The position numbers and the translations under genes are program-made. A model generated the notes under the pieces. The model did no database searches and was not told the DNA's origin. It saw nothing but the letters and a program-made list of their open reading frames with translations. 64,000 nt of DNA from Cupriavidus pauculus (GTDB lineage Bacteria > Pseudomonadota > Gammaproteobacteria > Burkholderiales > Burkholderiaceae). This document shows, piece after piece, positions 5,656 to 20,927 of this stretch; position 1 is the stretch's first letter, and each line of letters opens with the position of its first letter. The DNA is taken from the NCBI RefSeq assembly GCF_022179805.1, contig NZ_BPUO01000003.1:124001-188000 (forward strand). Direction: 5' to 3'.

Positions 5656-5682
5656 TAAAGTCTTCCTACCCACGGTCGATAA
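5656..5682 (+). promoter_or_regulatory. Sigma-28 (FliA) promoter of fliC
   Basis: TAAAGTCT, 11 bases, GTCGATAA. Both elements are near-perfect FliA consensus with exact spacing. They lie 96 bases upstream of the fliC ATG, giving a leader of about 85-90 bases. Confidence 0.9.
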
Positions 5683-5778: not shown

Positions 5779-6957
5779 ATGGCGCAAGTCATCAACACCA
5801 ACATTCTGTCGCTGCAAACGCAGAGCAACCTGAACACGTCGCAAGCTTCGCTGAACAGCGCGATCCAGCGTCTGTCGTCGGGCCTGCGCATCAACAGCGC
5901 CAAGGACGATGCAGCTGGCCAAGCCATCGCCAACCGCTTCACCGCCAACATCAAGGGCCTGACGCAAGCTTCGCGTAACGCCAACGACGGTATCTCGATC
6001 GCTCAAACGACCGAAGGCGCGCTGACCGAAGTCAACAACAACCTGCAACGTGTCCGTGAACTGTCGGTGCAAGCCGCCAACGGCACGAACTCGCAGTCGG
6101 ACCTGAAGTCGATCCAGGACGAAATTACGCAACGTCTGGCTGAAATCGACCGCGTGTCGGCTCAGACCCAGTTCAACGGCGTGAAGGTTCTGGCCAAGAA
6201 CCAACAAATGACGATCCAAGTTGGTGCCAACGACTCGGAATCGATCTCGATCAACCTGCAACAAATCACCTCGAAGACCCTGGGCGCCCTGGGTTACAAC
6301 GTGAACGGCCCGCAAGGCGCCGTGACCGCCGTGACCGCTGGCGACAAGGCCGTGACCGACGTGTTCGGCGCTGGCGCAACGGGCGCTGCTGACGCAACGA
6401 CCGCCAACACGACGGCTGCCCTGCGCACCGCCCTGGGCGTGTCGACCAACACCGGCGCTACCGCTTCGCTGGTGAAGGACGCCAACGGCAAGCTGTTCAT
6501 GCAAGTTACGCTGACCACGCCGACCGCGGCTGCCGACATCGCTGCCCTGAACGGCAAGAACATCGACGAAACGAAGCCGGTGTACATGGCTGTTGACTCG
6601 TCGTCGGGCACGCTGAACACGACGACCGGTGTGGTTGCTCTGACCGCCGCCACGACGTCGTCGAGCTTCACCAACGCTGCTACGGCCAACCCGCTGGCAA
6701 CGCTGGACAAGGCCCTGGCTTCGGTTGACTCGCTGCGCTCCTCGCTGGGTGCTGTGCAAAACCGCTTCGAATCCGCGATCAACAACCTGAGCACGACGAT
6801 CAACAACCTGTCGGCCTCGCGTTCGCGTATCGAAGACGCAGACTACGCAACGGAAGTGTCGAACATGACCCGCGCGAACATCCTGCAACAAGCTGGTACG
6901 TCGGTTCTGTCGCAAGCGAACCAAACCACGCAAAACGTGCTGTCGCTGCTGCGTTAA
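5779..6957 (+). CDS. fliC: Flagellin, major filament subunit
   Basis: About 392 residues, exported by the flagellar type III system and polymerised into the filament. The conserved N-terminal D0/D1 region starts MAQVINTNILSLQTQSNLN and contains LSSGLRINSAKDDAAGQAIA. The C-terminal D1/D0 region has RSRIEDADYATEVSNMTR and ends QTTQNVLSLLR. The central 170 or so residues are Thr/Ala/Val-rich and variable, the usual surface-exposed and glycosylated zone. The start is set by AGGAG upstream and by the family N-terminus. Codon use differs from the neighbours: Gln is mostly CAA, and GCT and CGT are frequent, as expected for a very highly expressed gene. It is driven by the sigma-28 promoter and closed by a strong terminator, so it is probably monocistronic. 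Confidence 0.98.
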   Translation: MAQVINTNILSLQTQSNLNTSQASLNSAIQRLSSGLRINSAKDDAAGQAIANRFTANIKGLTQASRNANDGISIAQTTEGALTEVNNNLQRVRELSVQAANGTNSQSDLKSIQDEITQRLAEIDRVSAQTQFNGVKVLAKNQQMTIQVGANDSESISINLQQITSKTLGALGYNVNGPQGAVTAVTAGDKAVTDVFGAGATGAADATTANTTAALRTALGVSTNTGATASLVKDANGKLFMQVTLTTPTAAADIAALNGKNIDETKPVYMAVDSSSGTLNTTTGVVALTAATTSSSFTNAATANPLATLDKALASVDSLRSSLGAVQNRFESAINNLSTTINNLSASRSRIEDADYATEVSNMTRANILQQAGTSVLSQANQTTQNVLSLLR

Positions 6958-9772: not shown

Positions 9773-11122
9773 ATGACCGGCATCCAGATTCCTTCCAGCC
9801 TGATTCCGCAGCAGGCACCGGACCCGCAGCTTTCGCGTCCCGCGCTGGCAATCGACAAGCTCGCCGCGCTGATGCCGGTGCCCGAGGTATCGCAGGGCAA
9901 CGTACAGACGTCCACCGGCGAGGCCGCACAGGCACGCCAGCCCAACGCCCTCGGCCCAGGCGGCACGGATCCGCGCCTGGCCGGACAGCCCGGCTCCACG
10001 CGTGAAACACTGAGCTTTGCCGCCAAGGCCATTCTCGACCTGTTCGAAGGCGGCAGTGCCGCGCCCGCGCGTCCCGCGACGCCGCTGCTGGCGGCTTCGC
10101 CAACTGGAAATCCCGCCGCGACCCAGGACCTGGCCAGTGCGCTGGCGCGCTTTGTCGACCAGAGCGGCCTGTTCTACGAATCGCACGTCACCCAGTGGGT
10201 GATGGGGCAGCGTCCGCTGTCCGAGTTGCTGCAGGAGCCACAGGCCGCATTGCGCAATCCGGCCCAGTCGCCGACGCAAATGCCGGCACCATCGGCGCAG
10301 CCGCAGGCCCAGCCCGCCGCGCCCGCACCGGCCGCCCTGCTGCCCTACGGCGGCCCGGCCGCACCGGGCGCGCTGCCGCCGCCCAGCGCCACGATCCTGG
10401 CCGAACTGACGCGGCCGGTCATCTATCCGCTTTCCACCGGAATTCCCGCGCAGGCAGCGCATGGCCAGCCGCAGGCCGCCAACGCGCAGCCAGCCGCCAG
10501 TAACGCCGCCGCGCTCCAGCCGCAGACGCCGCAGAGCCCCGCCGCCGAACAGCGGCTCGCGGCACATGCCAGCGCGGCCGCGCATGCGTACCAGGTCACG
10601 GCCGAGATTTCGCAGGAAGGCCACCATGTTGCCCGCGCCCAGCACGCCGCCATCGTCGCGAGCTGGAATGCGCCAGATAGCAGCGCCACGCAAGCGCAGC
10701 CTGACCGGGGCCCGCCCATCCATCCGTCCAGCGAAGGCGTGGTGCGTCAGCAGCTTGAACTGCTGGCATCGCAGCAGTTCCGCGCCACCATCGACGCCTG
10801 GCCCGGCATGCCCGTGGACTGGGAAATCACGCGCGACTACGACCGCGAAGCCGGTGGCACCACGCCGGAGGCCGCCACCTGGAGCACCCGGCTGCGCCTG
10901 AACCTGCCGCAGCTTGGCAGCGTCGATGCCGTGCTGACGCTCGGCGCGCAGGGGCTCGAAGCGCGCCTGGTGGCTGCCGACAGCGACGCCGCCGCGCGCC
11001 TGATCCAGGGCCGCGCCGACTTCCGCAGCCAGCTCGATGCACGCGGCATCGCGCTGCTGAACCTGAACGTGTCGACGCAGGACACCCCGTCGACGCCCAC
11101 CGTCATCGCCCTGCCAGCATGA
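9773..11122 (+). CDS. FliK-like hook-length-control paralogue
   Basis: 449 residues. The N-terminal 300 or so are Ala/Pro/Gln-rich and low complexity, as in molecular-ruler proteins. The C-terminal 120 look like the Flg_hook domain (QFRATIDAWPGMPVDW; then TRLRLNLPQLGSVDAVLTL and SQLDARGIALLNLNV). A second, more typical FliK lies at 26,709-28,190, so this is an extra copy. Its stop codon overlaps the start of the stand-alone FlhB C-terminal domain (ATGA), implying translational coupling. In canonical systems the FliK C-terminus talks to the FlhB C-terminus to switch export specificity, so the pair is a plausible functional unit. Confidence 0.78.
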   Translation: MTGIQIPSSLIPQQAPDPQLSRPALAIDKLAALMPVPEVSQGNVQTSTGEAAQARQPNALGPGGTDPRLAGQPGSTRETLSFAAKAILDLFEGGSAAPARPATPLLAASPTGNPAATQDLASALARFVDQSGLFYESHVTQWVMGQRPLSELLQEPQAALRNPAQSPTQMPAPSAQPQAQPAAPAPAALLPYGGPAAPGALPPPSATILAELTRPVIYPLSTGIPAQAAHGQPQAANAQPAASNAAALQPQTPQSPAAEQRLAAHASAAAHAYQVTAEISQEGHHVARAQHAAIVASWNAPDSSATQAQPDRGPPIHPSSEGVVRQQLELLASQQFRATIDAWPGMPVDWEITRDYDREAGGTTPEAATWSTRLRLNLPQLGSVDAVLTLGAQGLEARLVAADSDAAARLIQGRADFRSQLDARGIALLNLNVSTQDTPSTPTVIALPA

Positions 11123-11570: not shown

Positions 11571-13844
11571 ATGAAGAAACAGCCAAGGGGAAGCGGTTCG
11601 CATGCACTGGAAGAGGCGTGGGCGCTGTTCCGCGTCGGTAACTATCCGGCAGCGCATGCCACGGCCGAGCAGGCCGGACGGCGCGGCGCGCCGCCTGTGC
11701 AGGTGGAATACCTGAAGGGATACTCGCTGCTGCTGCTCGACCGCGATGCCGAGGCGCTGCAGATCGCCCAGGCCGGTCTGGCCAAGTGGCCCGGCGACGT
11801 CGCGCTGCAAGGGCTGACCGGCATGCTGCTGGTGCGCCAGGACAATCCCGACGAAGCGCGCCCGCTGCTAGAGCGCGCGCTGGAAGTGCGTCCCGACGAC
11901 ACGAACCTGCTGCTGTCGATGGCACGTGTCCACAGCATGATGAACGAGCGCCCCGCCGCGCAGGCCCTGTACCAGCGCCTGGTCGAGGCCGATCCCACCA
12001 ACTACATCGCGTTTTCCAACCTGGGCAACGAGCGGCGCGCCAATGGCGACCCCGCCGGCGGCCTGCAGGCCTATCGCATGGCGCGCCACGGCAATCCGTC
12101 GCTGGTGACCAACCGCTCGAACGTGCTGCTGGGCATGCTGAGCGCGGAAGACACCACGGCGCAGACGCTGCGTGCCGAGGCCGAGGACTTTGCCGCGATG
12201 CTCGCACGCGACACGGTGGCCGCCAGCGGCCCGCTGGGCAGCACGTCGCCGCGCATCCGCATCGGCTTCCTGTCGGCCGACCTTTCGTGGCACGCGGTTG
12301 CCTACTTCCTGATCCCGCTGATCGCGAACATCGACCGCAACCTCTTCGACGTGTTCCTGTTCCGCATGAACCGCAAGCAGGACAAGCTGACCGAGAAGCT
12401 GGAGCAGTACGCCACGGCGATGATCGACGTCAGCCGCCTGTCGACGCTCGACACGGTCCAGCGCATCCGCCGCGAGCAGATCGACGTGATGGTCGACCTG
12501 GGCGGTTACACCGGCCATTCGCCGCTGCTGGTGTTGTCGCACCGCGTGGCGCCGGTGCAGATGACCTGGCTGGGTTTTCCGGGCACCACCGGCATGCCGT
12601 CGATCGACTATCGCATCTCGGACTGGGTGGGCGATCCGGAAGGCGCCGAAAGCCACTATTCGGAAAAGCTGCTGCGCGCGCCGGTGTTCTGCGCGTTCCA
12701 CCCGCTGGTCACCGCGCCGCTGCAGGTCTATGAAGACAAGTACCGCGTCAAGGACACGCCGGCACTGCGCAATGGCTTCATCACGTTCGGCTCCTGCAAC
12801 GGCCTGACCAAGCTCAGCGACCTGACCCTGAAGCTGTGGGCCGATGTGCTGGACGCCTGCCCGAACAGCCGCCTGCTGATCGAATCCCAGAACGTGGCCC
12901 TGTCGGGCGTGCGCGAGATGTTCGAAGCGCGCCTGACGGCCCATGGCATCGACCTCGATCGCGTGGAACTGTTGAATCGTGTGGCCGACAACCAGTACGT
13001 CATGTACAACCGCATCGACATCGCGCTCGATGCCACGCCGTACACGGGCGGTACCACCACGTGCGACGCGCTGTGGATGGGCGTGCCCGTGGTGTCGCTG
13101 ACCGGCGAGGCGTTCCACCAGCGTATCTCGGCGATCTTCCTCAAGGACTGCGGCCTGGAGCCGCTGGTCTGCGAGGACGCCGCCGCCTACGTCAACATGG
13201 CCAGCGAACTGGCCAGCGATATCGGCCGTCTCAACGAACTGCGCCTGTCGCTGCGCCAGCGCGTGGAAAGCAGCGCGATGACCGACGCGCCGCGCTTTGC
13301 CGCGTGGTTCGAGCAGCAAGCCTACGCACTGAGCCACGCCCGCAAGGGCCTGCCGGAAGCCATGCCCGAGCGCGAGCAGGGCGTGTACTTTGGCGGCACG
13401 TGGTACACGGCCACCGACATGGCATTGAGCGTGGCCGCTCACATCGAGACCGGCGAATTCGACAAGCTCCACAACGTGCTGGAGAACCTGAGCTCCACCT
13501 GGTATCGCCACTGGATGGTCACGTACGGCCTGGCCGTCTACAAGTACCACATGTCGTCGCGCTCCGAAGCCATCGACCTGCTGATCGAAGCCATTGGCCA
13601 GCGCCCGTACGCGCTGCCGCTCTATCGCCTGCTGGCAGCATGGCTGAGCGACAACGGCTTCGAAAAGGACGCGCTCGCCGGCCTGCTGGGCGAGCAGTTT
13701 GGCCTGGACCTGGCCACGCTCGAAGCCAGCCCGGTGCCGAGCGCCTTTGAAGTGGCGGGCATGAAGGTGGAAGTGGTTGCTGACGAACCGGCCAACACGC
13801 ACGTCAACATCCGCATCAACGCCGACAGCGAGGCCCTCGCATGA
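11571..13844 (+). CDS. TPR-containing O-linked glycosyltransferase (SPINDLY/OGT, GT41-like), probable flagellin glycosyltransferase
   Basis: About 757 residues. The N-terminal 200 form tetratricopeptide-type helices ([49 protein letters not shown]). The GT-B catalytic part of the GT41 family follows: [79 protein letters not shown] and [20 protein letters not shown]. These enzymes transfer a sugar from a nucleotide donor to Ser/Thr of cytoplasmic proteins. It sits after the flagellin, cap and chaperone genes and overlaps rfbF by four bases, so flagellin is the likely acceptor. ATG at 11571 is chosen; the earlier in-frame start at 11508 lacks a better ribosome site. Confidence 0.85.
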
Positions 13845-14614
13845 AAGCCGTGATCCTGGCCGGTGGCCTTGGCACCCGCATTTCCGAAGAGTCGCACCTG
13901 CGTCCCAAGCCGATGATCGAGATCGGCGGCAAGCCGATCCTGTGGCACATCATGAAGATGTACTCGGCGCATGGCGTGAACGAGTTCGTGATCTGCCTGG
14001 GCTACAAGGGCTACGTCATCAAGGAATACTTCGCCAACTACTTCCTGCACATGTCCGACGTGACGTTCGACATGTCGGGCAACCGCATGGAAGTGCATTG
14101 CCAGAAGGCCGAGCCGTGGCGCGTCACGCTGGTGGACACAGGTGAGGACTCGCAAACCGGCGGCCGCCTGCGCCGCGTGCGCGACTACCTGCCGGCCGGC
14201 GAGTCGTTCTGCTTCACCTACGGCGACGGCGTGTCCGACATCAACATCAGCGCGGAAATCGAATTCCACCGCCGCCATGGCCGCTGGGCCACCGTGGCCG
14301 CCGTGCAGCCGCCGGGCCGCTATGGCGCCCTGCAGCGTACCGACGAGAACATGGTGACCGGCTTTGCCGAGAAGCCGCGCGGCGACGGCGGCTGGATCAA
14401 CGGCGGCTTCTTCGTGCTGCAGCCCGAAGCCATCGACCTGATCGCCGGCGACCATATCGCCTGGGAACAGGAACCGATGGGGCAACTGGCGCGTGACGGC
14501 CACCTGCTGGCCTTCGAGCATTCGGGCTTCTGGCAGCCGATGGACACGCTGCGCGAGAAGAACCAGCTCGAACAACTGTGGCAAACCGGCAAGGCGCCCT
14601 GGAAAGTCTGGTGA
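13841..14614 (+). CDS. rfbF: Glucose-1-phosphate cytidylyltransferase
   Basis: A 257-residue nucleotidyltransferase making CDP-glucose from CTP and glucose-1-phosphate, the committed step to CDP-linked deoxysugars. It has the signature [20 protein letters not shown] and [19 protein letters not shown] at the nucleotide site, [12 protein letters not shown] with the metal-binding Asp, and WINGGFFVL. Length and motifs agree with RfbF/DdhA. The start overlaps the glycosyltransferase stop (ATGA), and the stop overlaps the next start (TGATG), giving a tightly coupled GT-rfbF-rfbG unit. Confidence 0.95.
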
Positions 14615-15684
14615 TGGAAGCGCTTGCTCACTACCGTGGCCGGCGCGTGTTCGTGACCGGCCATACCGGTTTCAAAGGCGCGTGGCTGTCGATGTGGCTG
14701 GCGCGCGCCGGGGCCAAGGTCACCGGCTATGCGCTGGCACCGGCCACCGAGCCGAACCTGTTCACGCTGGCCGGCGTCGGACGCACGCTGCACGCGCACC
14801 ACATCGGCGACATCCGCGACACGGCGCAACTGCAGCAGGCCATGCGCACGGCCGAGCCCGAGGTCGTGTTCCACCTGGCCGCCCAGCCACTGGTGCGCGA
14901 AAGCTATCGCACGGCGGTGGATACGTGGTCGACCAACGTGATGGGCACAGTCAACGTGCTCGAAGCGGTGCGCGCCAATCCCTCGGTGCGCGCTGCCGTG
15001 GTGATCACCACCGACAAGTGCTACGAGAACCGTGAGTGGTTGTGGGGCTACCGCGAGACCGATCCGCTGGGTGGCCACGATCCGTACAGCGCCAGCAAGG
15101 CCGGCGCGGAACTGGTGGTGTCCAGCTATCGCCGCTCGTTCCTGGCGGCATCGGGCCAGCACCTGGCCAGCGCGCGTGCCGGCAATGTCATCGGCGGCGG
15201 CGACTGGTCGGCCGACCGGTTGATTCCCGACGCCGCGCGTGCCGCAGCGGCGGGCCAGGCGCTGCGTATCCGCCATCCGGAAGCAACGCGTCCGTGGCAG
15301 CACGTGCTGGAGTCACTGCACGGCTACCTGCTGTTGGGCACCAAGCTGCTCGGTGACGATGGCCGCACGTACGCCGATGCCTTCAACTTCGGCCCGGCCG
15401 CCACCGACAACCAGCCGGTACAGGCTGTGCTGCAAGGCTTGCAGCGGCACTGGCCGCAACTGCGTTGGGAACTCGATGCCGCGATGCGCGCAGCGGCGCC
15501 GCATGAAGCCGGCTATCTCTATCTGGATTCGTCGAAGGCCGTGCGCACGCTCGGCTGGCAGCCGCGCTGGACGCTCGACCGCGCCTTGCAGGAAACGGCG
15601 CGGTGGTACAGCCAGGTGCAGGCCAATCCCGACCAGGCCCGCGCCATCACCGAAGCGCAGATCGAAGCGTTCTCGGCAGCCTGA
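14614..15684 (+). CDS. rfbG: CDP-glucose 4,6-dehydratase
   Basis: About 356 residues, an extended short-chain dehydrogenase converting CDP-glucose to CDP-4-keto-6-deoxyglucose with bound NAD. The Rossmann motif is GHTGFKGAWLS (residues about 17-27); VVITTDKCYEN and DPYSASKAGAELVVSSYRRS supply the Thr, Tyr and Lys of the catalytic set. The ATG overlaps the rfbF stop by one base. The gene converges on the acyltransferase of the opposite operon, 14 bases away. Confidence 0.95.
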   Translation: MEALAHYRGRRVFVTGHTGFKGAWLSMWLARAGAKVTGYALAPATEPNLFTLAGVGRTLHAHHIGDIRDTAQLQQAMRTAEPEVVFHLAAQPLVRESYRTAVDTWSTNVMGTVNVLEAVRANPSVRAAVVITTDKCYENREWLWGYRETDPLGGHDPYSASKAGAELVVSSYRRSFLAASGQHLASARAGNVIGGGDWSADRLIPDAARAAAAGQALRIRHPEATRPWQHVLESLHGYLLLGTKLLGDDGRTYADAFNFGPAATDNQPVQAVLQGLQRHWPQLRWELDAAMRAAAPHEAGYLYLDSSKAVRTLGWQPRWTLDRALQETARWYSQVQANPDQARAITEAQIEAFSAA

Positions 15685-15698
15685 TCGGCAGGCTACCC

Positions 15699-16187
15699 TT
15701 ACTCGCGATACCGTACGATCCGGGCCGGATTGCCAGCAATCACTGCGTAATCCGGCCACTCGCCCTTGATCACGGCGCCCGCGCCGACCACGCAGCCCTT
15801 GCCCAGCGTGGTGCCATCCAGCAGCACGCAGTTCGCGCCAATCCAGCAGTCGTCGCCAATCACGATGCCGCCACGCGACGGCATGAAGCGCTGCTCGATG
15901 ATCGTCCGGTTGCGGTCGCGATACTCGTGGTTGGTCGACGCCAGCGTGGTATTGGCCGCGATCAGCACGCCAGTGCCCATGCGCACGCCGTTGCCGGAGT
16001 AGATCACCACGCCCGAGTTCAGGTAGCAGCGCGGACCGATTTCCACGTTGCCGTCGCCGCCCGCGAACTTGATTTTCACGAAGCTGTCGATGGTGACGTC
16101 GTCGCCCACCGACACATGGTTGCCGCGCACCGAACGCTCGATGTCGGCCAGCGGCGAGATCTTCGCCAGCGTTGAGATTCTGTTCAT
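15699..16187 (-). CDS. Hexapeptide-repeat acyltransferase (left-handed beta-helix)
   Basis: 162 residues built of hexapeptide turns (IGPRCYLNSGVVIYSGNGVRMGTG, split over residues 50-75; VIGDDCWIGANCVLLDGTTLGKG near 114-136). The C-terminus AVIAGNPARIVRYRE is typical of O-acetyltransferases. The probable catalytic His lies in STNHEYRDRN. It probably O-acylates the sugar made by this cluster. It is the last gene of the minus-strand sugar operon and overlaps the reductase stop by four bases. Confidence 0.85.
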   Translation of the reverse strand: MNRISTLAKISPLADIERSVRGNHVSVGDDVTIDSFVKIKFAGGDGNVEIGPRCYLNSGVVIYSGNGVRMGTGVLIAANTTLASTNHEYRDRNRTIIEQRFMPSRGGIVIGDDCWIGANCVLLDGTTLGKGCVVGAGAVIKGEWPDYAVIAGNPARIVRYRE

Positions 16188-17071
16188 CGCGAACGTTCCT
16201 TCAGCAGTCGGGTGGCCACATCGCGTACGAAGACGGTCATGCGCGTCCCATCAGTATCGGCTTCATCGTTCCAATGCGCCGAACCGAACGTGTAGGCGGC
16301 TTCCTGCGGACGATTGGTGCCAAGCGATACCGGCACCTCACCACCACCCGCAGCGGCCACCACGCCGGCACACAGCGTGGCCAGCGCATCCATGCGCCAC
16401 GGCTGGCCCGACACGTGCGTCAGGCCCGGCAGTGCCAGGTCCAGGCCCTGCACCACCGCCACCACCAACCGGTCCAGCGAGACATAGCAGCGCACCGGCG
16501 AGCCATCTGACAGCAGGCGCAGCGCGCCCTCGCCCACGGCCTGGCGTGTGAAATCAAAAGGCGCCAGCGTCCAGCGGTCGAAGGTCGACCAGTCGGCCGG
16601 CGTGCCGAACAGATTGGCAGGCCGCAGGATCGTGGTGCGAAAGTCCTGCGCGGCCAGCAACTGCTCGGCCAGCAGGTGGGTCAACCCATAGTCGTTGGCA
16701 GGCACCGGCACGGCGGCTTCATCGAGCCGGCCGGCCGGCTTGCCGAACACGTGGAACGTGGACAGGTAGACCACGTGTTTCACGCCCGCCTCGCGCAGGC
16801 GGCCGGCCAACGCACGTGTGGCGGTGACGTTGGCCGTGTATGCGGCGAGCGGGTCCTGGCGGCACAGGATCTCGTTGGCGGCGGCCGCGTGCACGCAGGC
16901 GTCGATGCCGGCAGGCAACGCGGCCAGGCTTTCGGGATGCAGCAGGTCGAACCGCACGTCGTCAGTTGGCCGGCGGCCCGCCGTGAGCACCTTCCAGCCG
17001 CGCGCACGCAGGCCGCCGCGGATCGCGCCGCCCGCGTAGCCCGATGCACCGGTCAGCAACACTGTCTGCAT
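16184..17071 (-). CDS. NAD(P)-dependent sugar epimerase/reductase, likely C4-ketoreductase of the CDP-sugar pathway
   Basis: 295 residues of the extended SDR fold: MQTVLLTGASGYAGGAIRGGL at the dinucleotide site, DACVHAAAANEI, VYLSTFHVFG, then NDYGLTHLLAEQLL with the catalytic Tyr and a Leu-His-Leu variation (YGLTHLLAE instead of YGLSKLLAE: the usual Lys position reads His, so catalysis may differ). Its position beside RfbH and an RfbC-like epimerase suggests reduction of a CDP-4-keto-3,6-dideoxyhexose. Stereochemistry and product cannot be deduced. Confidence 0.75.
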   Translation of the reverse strand: MQTVLLTGASGYAGGAIRGGLRARGWKVLTAGRRPTDDVRFDLLHPESLAALPAGIDACVHAAAANEILCRQDPLAAYTANVTATRALAGRLREAGVKHVVYLSTFHVFGKPAGRLDEAAVPVPANDYGLTHLLAEQLLAAQDFRTTILRPANLFGTPADWSTFDRWTLAPFDFTRQAVGEGALRLLSDGSPVRCYVSLDRLVVAVVQGLDLALPGLTHVSGQPWRMDALATLCAGVVAAAGGGEVPVSLGTNRPQEAAYTFGSAHWNDEADTDGTRMTVFVRDVATRLLKERSR

Positions 17072-17081
17072 GGTCTGTGGA

Positions 17082-17645
17082 TCAGGAGAAATCGGTCTGC
17101 GCCAGATAGGTGGCCAGCGCGGGATGCTGCGTGTCGCGCGGCGACAGCACCGGGGCGCCAGTCACATGCGGCGCGCCGTCGAACCAGTCGATGCCGACGC
17201 TGTCGACATGCACCCCGGCATCCGCTTCGGGCGCGTGCACCGACGACACCAGGTACCAGAGGCGCGTGTCGTCGACGTGCGCGGCAAAGCCGTGGGCGAT
17301 GCCGCGCGGGATGTACAGCATGGCCGGCGCATCGGCGCTGAGCATCAGGCTGATGCCCTGGCCAAACGTCGGCGAGCCGCGCCGCAAGTCCACCAGGCCG
17401 TCGCGCGCGCGGCCCGTCAGGCAACTCACGATCTTGGCGTGATCGTGCGGCGGGCGCTGGAAGTGCATGCCACGGATCACGCCGGCATGCGAGGTGGAGA
17501 CATAGGACTCCGCGAAGTCCGTCTCCAGCCCTTGCGCGGCCAGCGTGGGCGCATGAAAGAGCTTCATGAAGTCGCCTCGGCTGTCGCCGATGCGCGCTCC
17601 ATGCAGCAGGAAGCAGCCCGGCAGCGCAAGCGGCTCGGCACGCAT
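17082..17645 (-). CDS. RfbC-like cupin epimerase (dTDP/CDP-4-keto-hexose 3,5- or 5-epimerase family)
   Basis: 187 residues. It has the RfbC-type signature GVIRGMHFQRPPHDHAKIVS with the catalytic His after RGM, a strand with GLVDLRRGSPTFGQ, and YIPRGIAHGFAAH. In CDP-ascarylose synthesis an enzyme of this family acts as the C5 epimerase after RfbH. The start at 17645 lies two bases after the rfbH stop and gives the usual family length; the longer in-frame extension to 17933 reads through rfbH and is rejected. Confidence 0.82.
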   Translation of the reverse strand: MRAEPLALPGCFLLHGARIGDSRGDFMKLFHAPTLAAQGLETDFAESYVSTSHAGVIRGMHFQRPPHDHAKIVSCLTGRARDGLVDLRRGSPTFGQGISLMLSADAPAMLYIPRGIAHGFAAHVDDTRLWYLVSSVHAPEADAGVHVDSVGIDWFDGAPHVTGAPVLSPRDTQHPALATYLAQTDFS

Positions 17646-17647
17646 GA

Positions 17648-18964
17648 TCAGAACCCGATGCCGAAGAACTGTTCGAGCTTCTCGCCGACGAAGTCGAGCA
17701 TCGACTCCGACAAGCCCGGGTAGATGCCCAGCCAGAACGTGTCGTTCATCACGATGTCCGAGTTGGTCAGGTCGCCCACCACGCGGTAGTTGCGGCCCAT
17801 CATGTACGGCTGGCGCGTCAGGTTGCCGGCGAACAGCAGGCGCGTGCCGATGCGGTGCTGCTCCAGGTACGTGACCACGTCGGTACGGCGCACATTGGCC
17901 TCGGGGCGCAGCGTGACCGGGAACCCGAACCACGACGGATCGGAATTCGGCGTGGCGTGCGGCAGGATCAGCATGTCGCTGCAGGCGGCCAGGCGCTCAC
18001 GCAGGAAGGCGAAGTTGCTCCGGCGCGCGGCGATGAAGCCTTCGGCGCGGTCGATCTGGGCCAGCCCGCATGCGGCCTGCATGTCGGTGATCTTGAGGTT
18101 GTAGCCCAGGTGCGAATACGTGTACTTGTGGTCGTAGCCTTCGGGCAGGTTGCCGAGCTTCCAGCAGAAGCGGCGATTGCACGTGTTGTCCTTGCCCGGC
18201 GGGCAGTAGCAATCACGGCCCCAGTCGCGGAACGACTCGGCAATGGTCTTCAGCGCGTGGTTGTTCGTGAACACCGCGCCGCCCTCGCCCATCGTGATGT
18301 GGTGGGCCGGGTAGAAGCTCAGCGTGGCGATGTCGCCGAACGTGCCGACGAGCTGGCCGTTGTAGGTGGCGCCCAGCGCGTCGCAGCAGTCTTCCACGAG
18401 CCACAGGTTGTACTTGCGGCACAGCGCCGTCACCACTTCGAGGTTGAACGGGTTGCCGAGCGTGTGGGCCAGCATGATGGCCTTGGTGCGCGGCGTGATC
18501 GCGGCCTCGATGCGGCTGGCATCGATGTTGTACGTGCCCAGTTCCACGTCGACGAAGACGGGTACCGCGCCGCACTGCAGGATCGGGTTGACGGTGGTCG
18601 GGAAGCCCGCGGCCACGCCGATGACTTCGTCACCGGGCTGGATGGCGCGGTCGCCCAGGCGCGGCGACGTCAGCGTGGCAAATGCCACCAGATTCGCCGA
18701 CGAACCCGAGTTCACGGTCAGCACGTGCTTCACGCCCAGCAGCTTGCCCAGCCGCTGTTCGAAGGCGTCATTGAAGCGGCCCGTGGTCAGCCAGGCGTCG
18801 AGCGAAGCCTCGACCATGGCCTTCATCTCAGGCGCGCCCACCACCTTGCCAGACGGCGGGATCACGGTTTCACCAGGCCGGAATCCCTGGGTTTCGCTCT
18901 GGACCAGTGCCGCGTATTCGTCGACCAGCCCTGCGATCTTCGCGCGTAGTGTTTCCTTGTTCAT
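17648..18964 (-). CDS. rfbH: CDP-4-keto-6-deoxy-D-glucose 3-dehydrase (E1)
   Basis: About 438 residues. A PMP-dependent aminotransferase-fold enzyme with His in place of the Schiff-base Lys ([16 protein letters not shown]), the hallmark of E1. A cysteine pattern C-x57-C-x1-C-x7-C runs from the second Cys of EDCCDALG to [11 protein letters not shown], exactly the [2Fe-2S] ligand spacing described for E1. It removes the C3 hydroxyl of CDP-4-keto-6-deoxyglucose with electrons from a separate reductase (E3), which is not in this window. The ATG at 18964 is preferred over an in-frame TTG two codons upstream. The gene heads the tightly packed rfbH-rfbC-reductase-acyltransferase block. Confidence 0.95.
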
Positions 18965-19025
18965 TCCCAAGCTCTATTGGTTATATCTGCGCGGCTCTAG
19001 CGGCCGCAGCATTGTTCGGTCGTAC

Positions 19026-20546
19026 TTAAGCGGCCTTTTTGTCAGCCGTCTGCGCCATGGCATCCATCTCGGCCACCACGGCCTGCGGATTGTCATGAAT
19101 CAGGTCGTGGCCGCCGCGTACCTGCGTCACGGCGATGCCGCGTGCGCGCAGTTCGTCCAGGTCGTCCTTGTCCAGGCAGCAGGCCACCTTGTCGGTGCGG
19201 CGTTGCGGATGCATCGACACGTCGCCCGTCAGCGTGTGCACCGGCGTCTGCAGGCCATCGAGCAGATGCCAGAACGTGCGCTCGGCGATCACGGTTTCGG
19301 TCACGCCGTAGATGTCCCACGCGAACTGCCGCGCGTGAAGATTGTCCGGCGACGACGCCAGCACGCTGCGCAGGAACGCGTGGTTGTGCCAGAGCTTCTG
19401 CGCCGAGAACGGCGTGTCCAGCAGCAACACGCCCTTGCAGCGTTCGTCCTCGCGCGCCAGTGCCAGTCCTACGGCGCCGCCAAAGCTGACGCCCACCACC
19501 TGGTAGTCGCCCTGAATCTCGCGCGCAATCGCCGGCAGCAGTTCGCGGGCGAAGCCTTCGGCCGAATACTCGGCCGGCCGCCAGCTCTTGCCCGAACCGG
19601 GCAGGTCGGCGAACACCAGGTTCACGTGCGATGCCACGCCGGCAAAGTCGGCCACGGTCTCGATATTGCCCAGCGATCCATGCAACACCAGCCACGTGGG
19701 CGCGTCGGGCTTCCAGGTCTGCGGCACGCGCAGGCGCACCACGCCGGTGGCGCCCGCGATGATGCGCTCGCCCTTGGTCTGCGACCGCATGCGGTGGATC
19801 ATCGTCGCCTTGGCCTCGTCGAGCTTGCCCAGCGCCGGCGTCTCGCCGTTCATGATCCAGCGGATGTTGGCTTCCACGTCGGCCTTGGGCCAGTCCCACC
19901 ACCGCAGCGCCTGCAGGTGCGCACTGGTGGCCTCGTCGAAGCGGCGACGGATGAAGGTGGCCGGATTGCCGGCCCAGACCTCGTAGGGGCCCACGTCGCG
20001 CGACACCACCGCGCCCGCGCCGATCACGGCGCCATCGCCAATCGTGACGCCAGACAGGATGGTCGAATGCGCGCCGATCCAGACGTCGTTGCCGATGGTC
20101 ACGCCGCCGCGCGTGGACGAAAAGTCCGGCACCGGCACGGTCTTGAACAGCGTGCCGAAGTGCGGCGCGGTGAACGGATAGATCGTGTGCCAGTCGTGGC
20201 GGTGATAGCTGCCCAGGATGACCTTCACGTCATGCCCGATCGTGCAGTAGTTGCCGATGGCCAGCCGCGCGTATTCGCCGGGCTGGTTGTGCGGGAAGAC
20301 CGACGGCACGCCGTAGCTGTAGTCGCCAATGCTGTACTGGGTGGGCTGGTGCAGGTGCACGGCGGTGAACTGCAGGCCCTGGACGTTATGGCCAACGGTC
20401 CACTGCAGGTGCGTGGCGCCACGATGCTCGGGACGCACCGCCAGGATCTGGCGCGCCACGTCCGCCGCCTGGCTTCGGTTGCCCTGCATCAGGGCATTCA
20501 CCGCCAACTGCATGGCGTCGTCGATCGTCATGGTCTGTTCGGCCAT
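19026..20546 (-). CDS. Fusion protein: CatB/XAT-type acetyltransferase plus alpha/beta hydrolase
   Basis: About 506 residues. Residues 1-45 are helical. About 60-210 are a left-handed beta-helix acyltransferase of the xenobiotic acetyltransferase type: IGDYSYGVPSVF, IGNYCTIGHDVKVILGSYHRHDW with the catalytic His, VTIGNDVWIGAHSTILSGV, and YEVWAGNPATFIRRRF. About 265-500 form an alpha/beta hydrolase: LVLHGSLGN oxyanion loop, VVGVSFGGAVGLAL nucleophile elbow, LTGDVS acid region and GGHDLIHDNP His. Putting an acyl-transfer and an acyl-hydrolysis module on one chain is unusual. AGGAGG lies three bases before the chosen ATG, a tight spacing. It lies between fliE and rfbH on the same strand, so a role in acylating the flagellar glycan is plausible. 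Confidence 0.8.
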   Translation of the reverse strand: MAEQTMTIDDAMQLAVNALMQGNRSQAADVARQILAVRPEHRGATHLQWTVGHNVQGLQFTAVHLHQPTQYSIGDYSYGVPSVFPHNQPGEYARLAIGNYCTIGHDVKVILGSYHRHDWHTIYPFTAPHFGTLFKTVPVPDFSSTRGGVTIGNDVWIGAHSTILSGVTIGDGAVIGAGAVVSRDVGPYEVWAGNPATFIRRRFDEATSAHLQALRWWDWPKADVEANIRWIMNGETPALGKLDEAKATMIHRMRSQTKGERIIAGATGVVRLRVPQTWKPDAPTWLVLHGSLGNIETVADFAGVASHVNLVFADLPGSGKSWRPAEYSAEGFARELLPAIAREIQGDYQVVGVSFGGAVGLALAREDERCKGVLLLDTPFSAQKLWHNHAFLRSVLASSPDNLHARQFAWDIYGVTETVIAERTFWHLLDGLQTPVHTLTGDVSMHPQRRTDKVACCLDKDDLDELRARGIAVTQVRGGHDLIHDNPQAVVAEMDAMAQTADKKAA

Positions 20547-20606: not shown

Positions 20607-20927
20607 TTAAACCGGCATGTTCATCATTTCCTGGTACGCCGCCGCCAGGCGGTTACGCACCTGCACCGTGGTCTGGAAGGAAATGTTGGCCTTCTGCATG
20701 TCGATCATCACGTCGTTCAGCGACACACCGGGCTTGCCCACTTCAAACGCCTCGGCCTGGCCATAGGCGCGTTCCTGGGTGGCGTTCAGGCGCTGCAGCG
20801 ATCGCTGCAGTTCGCCGCCAAAGCCGGTGGATGCGGCCGCGGCCGTCTGTGAGGCGTTGCCGCCGCCAGCCACCTGCGCCAGGCCGCGCAGTTGCTGGAG
20901 CATGCCTTCGATAGAGGAAATGGTCAT
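20607..20927 (-). CDS. fliE: Flagellar hook-basal body protein FliE
   Basis: About 106 residues, the adaptor between the MS ring and the proximal rod. Recognised by the C-terminal GKPGVSLNDVMIDMQKANISFQ (split: GKPGVSLNDVMIDM, QKANISFQ) and QVRNRLAAAYQEMMNMPV. Upstream is a Gly/Ala linker. ATG at 20927 gives MTISSIEGMLQQLRG, the family start; an extension to 20981 is rejected. It is transcribed away from fliF and leads into the sugar operon. Confidence 0.95.
   Translation of the reverse strand: MTISSIEGMLQQLRGLAQVAGGGNASQTAAAASTGFGGELQRSLQRLNATQERAYGQAEAFEVGKPGVSLNDVMIDMQKANISFQTTVQVRNRLAAAYQEMMNMPV

Follow-up and report, generated by a model that had tools for sequence, protein, structure and literature searches.

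Why should eight genes for making, acylating and transferring a deoxysugar lie inside a flagellar gene cluster, and to what would their product be attached? The question is raised by a 64,000-nucleotide stretch of Cupriavidus pauculus DNA (the window), which is part of contig C3 in a 6.8 Mb genome, called G000 in the genome comparisons. In it an eight-gene cassette at 11571-20546 stands between fliK and fliE. From gene families and their placement we regard it as probable that the cassette is a flagellar island for an acylated, C5-epimerised and C4-reduced cytidine diphosphate (CDP)-linked 3,6-dideoxyhexose that is put on flagellin. The flagellar glycosylation island is genuine and well formed, its tail is probably one for a 3,6-dideoxyhexose, and flagellin is the likely target. 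An earlier inspection of the DNA alone (the sequence-only reading) had named the same genes between those of the filament and the basal body. Gene finding and family scans bore this out, every gene being present there as an open frame (Table 1).

CDP-glucose synthesis and 4,6-dehydration are covered by RfbF and RfbG, both of which exceed curated cut-offs. RfbH aligns over its full length with the solved E1 structure 3bcx (8e-203) and has His where 3bb8, an otherwise nearly identical chain to 3bcx, reads Lys. E1 and SpnQ are marked by His for Lys and four Cys, and E3 is the electron donor of E1, in the part of the source available (PMC8987622). His221 and Cys193, 194, 252, 254 and 262 are kept in 47 of 47 aligned RfbH rows, the window included and one row (L059) being read across a stop. 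A single RfbH match at E ≤ 1e-60 is found in the genome. The window protein shows the marks of a 3-dehydrase (E1), and the earlier proposal that RfbF to RfbH would lead to a 3,6-dideoxy sugar is supported by the family scores and the retained E1 residues.

For the RmlC-like protein the closest PDB entry is 5buv, a putative epimerase. Its His61, Lys71, Tyr131 and Asp153, which we take to serve as the base and the C5 acid, are invariant across five cassette copies. By our own derivation, deoxygenation of C3 leaves C5 as the one neighbour that can be inverted, and reduction at C4 would then yield ascarylose or the sugar epimeric to it at C4. Sequence reveals neither the epimerisation at C5 nor the configuration at C4, and the RmlC-type protein is a candidate C5 epimerase. 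The reduction is assigned, also as a candidate, to a short-chain dehydrogenase/reductase (SDR), which retains the glycine motif, Ser/Thr and Tyr; the position of the catalytic Lys is occupied by His132 in this protein and by Lys in the aligned 6wjb. Thus the ketoreductase of the sequence-only reading stands by family, with the catalytic lysine of SDR enzymes missing. The profile with which homologues were collected was built from nine proteins of this kind, and of the two search patterns one required His. Among the best 120 of 227 matches at E ≤ 1e-20 (8000 candidates scored, the window's own protein included), the lysine position is His in 103, Asn in 17 and Lys in none, and Ser, Thr and Tyr are kept in all 120. 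L078, an SDR row of independent origin found via RfbH, also has His there. No characterised AscE or AscF name occurs among the SDR homologues listed. An order-wide SDR search gave one genome of 399, the window's own, which is a weak count with five candidates scored per listed genome.

Transfer would fall to the TPR-GT41 protein, whose closest PDB relatives are SPINDLY (1.9e-74) and OGT (9.4e-43). After its TPR repeats the window protein has a GT41 domain with both catalytic-type residues, His241 and Lys414, whose roles we assume to be catalytic. Among the flagellar-locus rows the His is kept in 37 of 37 and the Lys in 35 of 37. By locus and domain logic the protein is a candidate flagellin O-glycosyltransferase, and the fliC product is the likely acceptor. 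Flagellin_N (PF00669) has two matches in the genome, fliC and G000:C3:396521-396925 (L002); fliC seems to be the sole flagellin because the other match reads as FlgL on visual inspection of its sequence and of the FlgK-like frame beside it. Two forms of GT41 gene were seen at other loci. In L091:2762-6238 (A. pestifer) and L162:3606-7073, GT41 is fused to an N-terminal methyltransferase with a regulatory domain and TPR repeats, and in L037:214-4783, L152, L155, L156 and L160 two GT41 genes stand in tandem, perhaps for two acceptor sites or two sugars.

Two acyltransferases had been read in the cassette. Both acetyltransferases are present; the second, however, is fused to an alpha/beta-hydrolase and has a TPR-like N-terminus. 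In this 506-residue protein a VatD-type acetyltransferase was found by profile matching (7.3e-42), the hydrolase fold is supported by Foldseek, and the N-terminal helical hairpin has its helices within residues 8-52. Its AlphaFold model has a mean predicted local distance difference test (pLDDT) score of 73.9, with block values of 87-93 for residues 11-50 and values below 50 for most of the beta-helix part (103-129, 136-202). Across the family the acetyltransferase catalytic-type His115 is kept in 29 of 29 rows, as are the hydrolase residues Asp377 and His480, with Ser354 in 28; the second candidate hydrolase acid, Asp442, is Asp in 20 rows only. The protein gave 547 matches at E ≤ 1e-3 among 8000 scored. 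Among the best 120 of these, P0001-P0029 (P0001 being the window's own) cover at least 86% of the query, and the named carriers among the matches listed are Cupriavidus plantarum, C. campinensis and Achromobacter species. The gene is missing in the cassette copy of G022, and only pieces of the hydrolase part remain in that of G006. At L037:9991-10414 it is seen only as hydrolase-like pieces, with overlapping matches.

From these families we infer the order of steps, the stereochemistry, the acyl group, the donor and the acceptor. RfbF and RfbG would produce CDP-4-keto-6-deoxyglucose, from which RfbH (E1), served by a reductase whose gene lies at another place in the genome, would remove the C3 hydroxyl. 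Inversion of C5 would fall to the RmlC-type enzyme and reduction of C4 to the SDR, and the product would be either CDP-ascarylose, with 3,6-dideoxy-L-arabino-hexose as its sugar, or the C4 epimer, with the L-lyxo form. The sugar may be O-acylated by either acetyltransferase or by both, and TPR-GT41 would attach it to Ser/Thr residues of cytosolic flagellin, prior to export.

The same position was then compared within the genus. A fliE match came up in 56 of the 60 Cupriavidus genomes, and all 56 neighbourhoods were read, up to 20 kb, with the window standing for G000. Counting the window, 29 of them hold GT41 and 28 hold RfbF/RfbG. The cassette type of the window occurs in three (G000, G022 and G006), and in each the tail of hexapeptide acetyltransferase, SDR, RmlC and RfbH adjoins fliE; the G006 contig starts before GT41, with fliK outside the sequence seen. 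Eighteen genomes have GT41-RfbF-RfbG-C-methyltransferase-RmlC-like, accompanied by an FkbM methyltransferase in 16 and by a DegT protein in two; in six others the set is inverted and includes C-methyltransferase, RmlC-like, WbqC and DegT. Two others contain GT41-RfbF-RfbG and FkbM (L118) or GT41 and DegT (L162). The remaining 27 show no island gene; the slot is shorter than 1.6 kb in 26, and in L163, where the genes are ordered differently, GT41 has a weak match (26%) on the flank of which only 3 kb was read. As a separate observation, the commoner type (L111:8061-16520 and 17 similar loci) points to a C-methyl-branched CDP-sugar on flagellin.

In the RfbF tree, 21 of the 28 Cupriavidus flagellar sequences (the types of three and of 18) form one clade (support 100/99), the other seven form a second (100/97), and Achromobacter and L073 stand apart. 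Within the first clade the window and G022 pair (100/90), and G006 groups with four C-methyl islands (99/91). The three cassette copies come together in the RfbH tree (support 99), a quick version made with no bootstrap. Different tailoring halves thus stand behind related cores, and the same tail on two RfbF branches argues for exchange of the tailoring half. Judged by its gene content, the slot is a flagellar glycosylation island, with exchangeable glycan genes at a fixed flagellar position. A fuller proposal is made tentatively, as possible rather than probable: that GT41 uses a CDP-sugar to place ascarylose or the corresponding C4 epimer, an L-3,6-dideoxyhexose in acylated form, in O-linkage on flagellin, that the final reduction is carried out by an SDR subfamily with His or Asn for Lys, and that 3,6-dideoxy and C-methyl tails are swapped behind a GT41-RfbF-RfbG core so that the flagella of related species differ in sugar.

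Outside the genus, an SDR scan of named genomes gave 30 loci, and a gene-by-gene comparison covered 19 of them. In Achromobacter, presumably of a different family of the same order, Achromobacter sp. MYb9 and A. pestifer have rfbF-rfbG-rfbH-rmlC-SDR-hexapeptide acetyltransferase-beta-helix/hydrolase gene in one direction and then fliC on the opposite strand; beyond it, A. pestifer has a sigma-70-family factor, FliA by position, and flhC. Seven cyanobacterial loci and Neobacillus have an RmlC-SDR pair behind RfbG-like genes, and two of the eight (L085, L089) also contain RfbH. In five of the six loci lacking RfbH the RfbG-like identity is only 31-34%, and these may therefore encode another dehydratase. 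Within the family RfbH was found in 55 of 398 genomes; 45 contexts, including the window, were read and 10 left unread, and flagellar genes lie in the stretch read in four of the 45. An island in another genus of the family (L073:3649-19036) combines fliC, fliD, GT41, rfbF, rfbG and rfbH with an NAD epimerase, an FkbM methyltransferase, a transketolase-like N domain and a GT2/hexapeptide fusion, and perhaps makes a branched 3,6-dideoxy sugar.

Several observations weigh against the flagellin-linked 3,6-dideoxyhexose. The SDR lacks the canonical catalytic Lys (YGLTH for YxxxK). The cluster contains no E3 (AscD/RfbI). A Fer2 search of the genome gave 28 matches, and four reductase-like proteins compared with NCBIfam hit no E3-specific model; with a cluster-linked E3 as query the best homologue in the genome reaches 38% identity. 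E3 homologues (E ≤ 1e-50, counterparts 37-40%) are present in 60 of the 60 Cupriavidus genomes searched, and their distribution therefore does not track the cassette. An E3 inside the cluster was rejected, the searches having given only homologues with such genus-wide counterparts. E3 is near RfbH in two of the 44 fetched RfbH contexts of the family, from which E3 in trans appears to be the usual state. The GT41 enzymes known to us take UDP- or GDP-sugars, and a CDP donor here is our inference. Finally, both Achromobacter GT41 proteins (L091, L083) carry Arg for the catalytic-type Lys, which weakens a simple transfer of the GT41 assignment to that genus. This Arg and the second RfbF clade leave the odds for the window itself unchanged.

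Other products can be drawn from the same genes. Should the RmlC-type enzyme leave C5 as it is, or be a 3-epimerase, the sugar would be a D-series CDP-dideoxyhexose (paratose- or abequose-like) or a C3-epimerised one. The closest structural relative of the epimerase, 5buv, speaks for this, as we believe it to be a Yersinia enterocolitica O-antigen enzyme from a pathway in which 6-deoxygulose needs C3 epimerisation. Moreover, paratose is the product predicted for flagellar islands of Clostridium in the available portion of PMC13317340. A C3 epimerase would nevertheless be pointless ahead of a C3 dehydrase, and the invariant RmlC-type residues, with the roles we assume for them, argue for C5; we consider the D-series or C3-epimerised sugar unlikely. 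Lack of a dedicated E3 also allows RfbH to be an aminotransferase, the product being a 4-amino-4,6-dideoxy sugar N-acylated by the hexapeptide enzyme, and SpnQ is described as having aminotransferase activity without its reductase in the text available from PMC8987622. This is very improbable given that RfbH has His for the PLP lysine and keeps its cluster Cys, that an SDR and an epimerase needing a 4-keto group share the operon, and that a distant E3 is usual in the family.

The sugar might instead be destined for lipopolysaccharide (LPS) or another polysaccharide, the flagellar position being a coincidental insertion. RfbFGH is classically an O-antigen pathway, and 41 of the 45 family RfbH contexts have no flagellar query gene in the stretch read (at most 20 kb). 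We give this destination very little chance: no polymerase, flippase or lipid-linked transferase is encoded among the eight genes, the flagellar position recurs in Cupriavidus, Achromobacter and L073, and GT41 is best known for protein glycosylation. A simple LPS locus was rejected as the best reading on the first two of these grounds. The earlier choice of flagellin over LPS is supported by the TPR-GT41 protein, by the flagellar placement in both genera and by the same-slot GT41 islands of Cupriavidus. A decayed pathway, or an SDR that is a non-catalytic partner, would leave flagellin with another sugar or none. The replacement of Lys by His or Asn throughout the 120 listed SDR homologues fits this, as does the reduction of the beta-helix/hydrolase gene to pieces in C. 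basilensis, but every window frame is open, the same homologues all keep Ser, Thr and Tyr, and the cassette is maintained in two genera. Either case is thus most unlikely, and the acylated, C5-epimerised 3,6-dideoxyhexose on flagellin is retained as the probable one.

To the left of the cassette lie fliC, flaG, fliD, fliS, fliT and fliK, and to the right fliE and fliF. GT41, rfbF and rfbG form the plus-strand half, which begins 448 bp after fliK in the same direction and has frame overlaps of 4 bases and 1 base. The minus-strand half, in reading order the beta-helix/hydrolase gene, rfbH, the rmlC-like gene, the SDR gene and the hexapeptide acetyltransferase gene, begins 60 bp after the co-directional fliE. 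The halves converge, with 14 bp between their stop codons. As both are co-directional with the flagellar genes upstream (fliK, fliE), transcription could run on from these. A scan for sigma-70-type promoters gave no site inside the cassette (weak evidence), and a scan of the cassette for terminators gave no excess over shuffled sequence. A sigma-28-like site with one mismatch (5656-5682) ends 96 bp before the fliC start; the pattern has four matches at two or fewer mismatches, with a shuffle mean of 0.78. A sigma-28 promoter for the cassette was rejected, the pattern having matched ahead of fliC and not at the cassette. Foreign base composition was also rejected, since GC inside (0.64-0.68) resembles much of the window.

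Table 1. Cassette genes and flagellar neighbours in the window.
Feature	Position	Strand	Evidence
TPR + GT41 (OGT/SPINDLY-type) glycosyltransferase, 757 aa	11571-13844	+	PF13844 6.6e-41 and TPR families
RfbF, glucose-1-phosphate cytidylyltransferase	13841-14614	+	TIGR02623 462.7 bits, cut-off 300.25
RfbG, CDP-glucose 4,6-dehydratase (start at the Met overlapping the rfbF stop; longer frame starts 14578)	14614-15684	+	TIGR02622 491 bits, cut-off 278.45
Hexapeptide (left-handed beta-helix) sugar O-acetyltransferase, WbbJ-like	15699-16187	-	PF00132 1.3e-18; NF007240 87.4 bits, under cut-off 243
Extended SDR, candidate 4-ketoreductase, YGLTH for YxxxK	16184-17071	-	PF01370/PF04321
RmlC/AscE-type cupin epimerase	17082-17645	-	PF00908 1e-48, 165.7 bits; TIGR01221 128.8 bits, under cut-off 155.75 (both scans on longer frame, to 17933)
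RfbH/E1, CDP-6-deoxy-L-threo-D-glycero-4-hexulose-3-dehydrase	17648-18964	-	NF011936 750.3 bits, cut-off 423
TPR-like hairpin + Vat/CatB-type acetyltransferase + alpha/beta-hydrolase, 506 aa	19026-20546	-	PF00132, PF12697
fliC, flagellin	5779-6957	+	NF005294 534 bits
fliK	9773-11122	+	PF02120 2.1e-15
fliE	20607-20927	-	PF02049 3.5e-28
fliF	from 21289	+	

If the proposal is true, GT41 enzymes that glycosylate proteins also use a CDP-sugar as donor, and the flagellum of beta-proteobacteria bears a 3,6-dideoxy sugar of the O-antigen type. The comparison within Cupriavidus is a natural experiment, with one slot, related cores, at least two sugar tails and 26 congeners whose slot is below 1.6 kb. 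Flagellar sugars can influence host and phage recognition, and the tail swap can therefore be tested in soil strains by simple deletions. No report of the cassette in Cupriavidus or Achromobacter was recognised from titles and abstracts, most subscription papers being outside reach, and a literature search on ascarylose and ascF gave no match. The general idea is already in print in the papers on Clostridium and Enterobacteriaceae islands; the composition, the host group, the GT41 link and the tail exchange seem to be new here.

Among known systems, the CDP-ascarylose pathway of the Yersinia pseudotuberculosis O-antigen (ascABCDEF) resembles the cassette at family level, with RfbF/AscA, RfbG/AscB, RfbH/AscC (E1), an RmlC-type epimerase and an SDR. 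Ascarylose is otherwise known from Yersinia O-antigen and nematode ascarosides. The likeness to ascarylose drawn by the sequence-only reading holds in that the composition is compatible; it is qualified by the lack of AscD (E3) in the cluster, by His for Lys in the reductase candidate and by a stereochemistry that sequence does not reveal. GT41, the acetyltransferases and the flagellar locus further set the cassette apart. A flagellin glycosylation cluster of Burkholderia (FgtA, BCAL0111), which we understand to belong to a related genus and to lie after fliD/fliT, presumably uses a dTDP-amino sugar, unlike the cassette. The modification had also been called uncommon, which fits the exact composition and not the sugar class, as a 3,6-dideoxyhexose on flagellin has been predicted in Clostridium. 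There, in the accessible text of the 2026 paper, paratose on flagellin is predicted from RfbF-RfbG-RfbH-RfbS, and flagellar locus, predicted CDP-3,6-dideoxyhexose and, in some strains, TPR-containing glycosyltransferases are shared with the cassette. The differences lie in RfbS for RmlC and SDR (C. butyricum), GT2 domains with TPR (C. sporogenes), an unrelated phylum and a predicted D sugar (PMC13317340). Enterobacteriaceae flagellin islands of type 23 likewise hold CDP-4-keto-6-deoxyglucose genes in an exchangeable flagellar island, with no RfbH or GT41 seen in the available part of that paper (PMC4875605). A tested precedent for a TPR-glycosyltransferase on flagellin is FlmG of Caulobacter crescentus, which similarly joins a TPR domain to a GT-B transferase and whose donor, in the portion of the report at hand, is pseudaminic acid and no CDP-deoxyhexose (PMC7591256).

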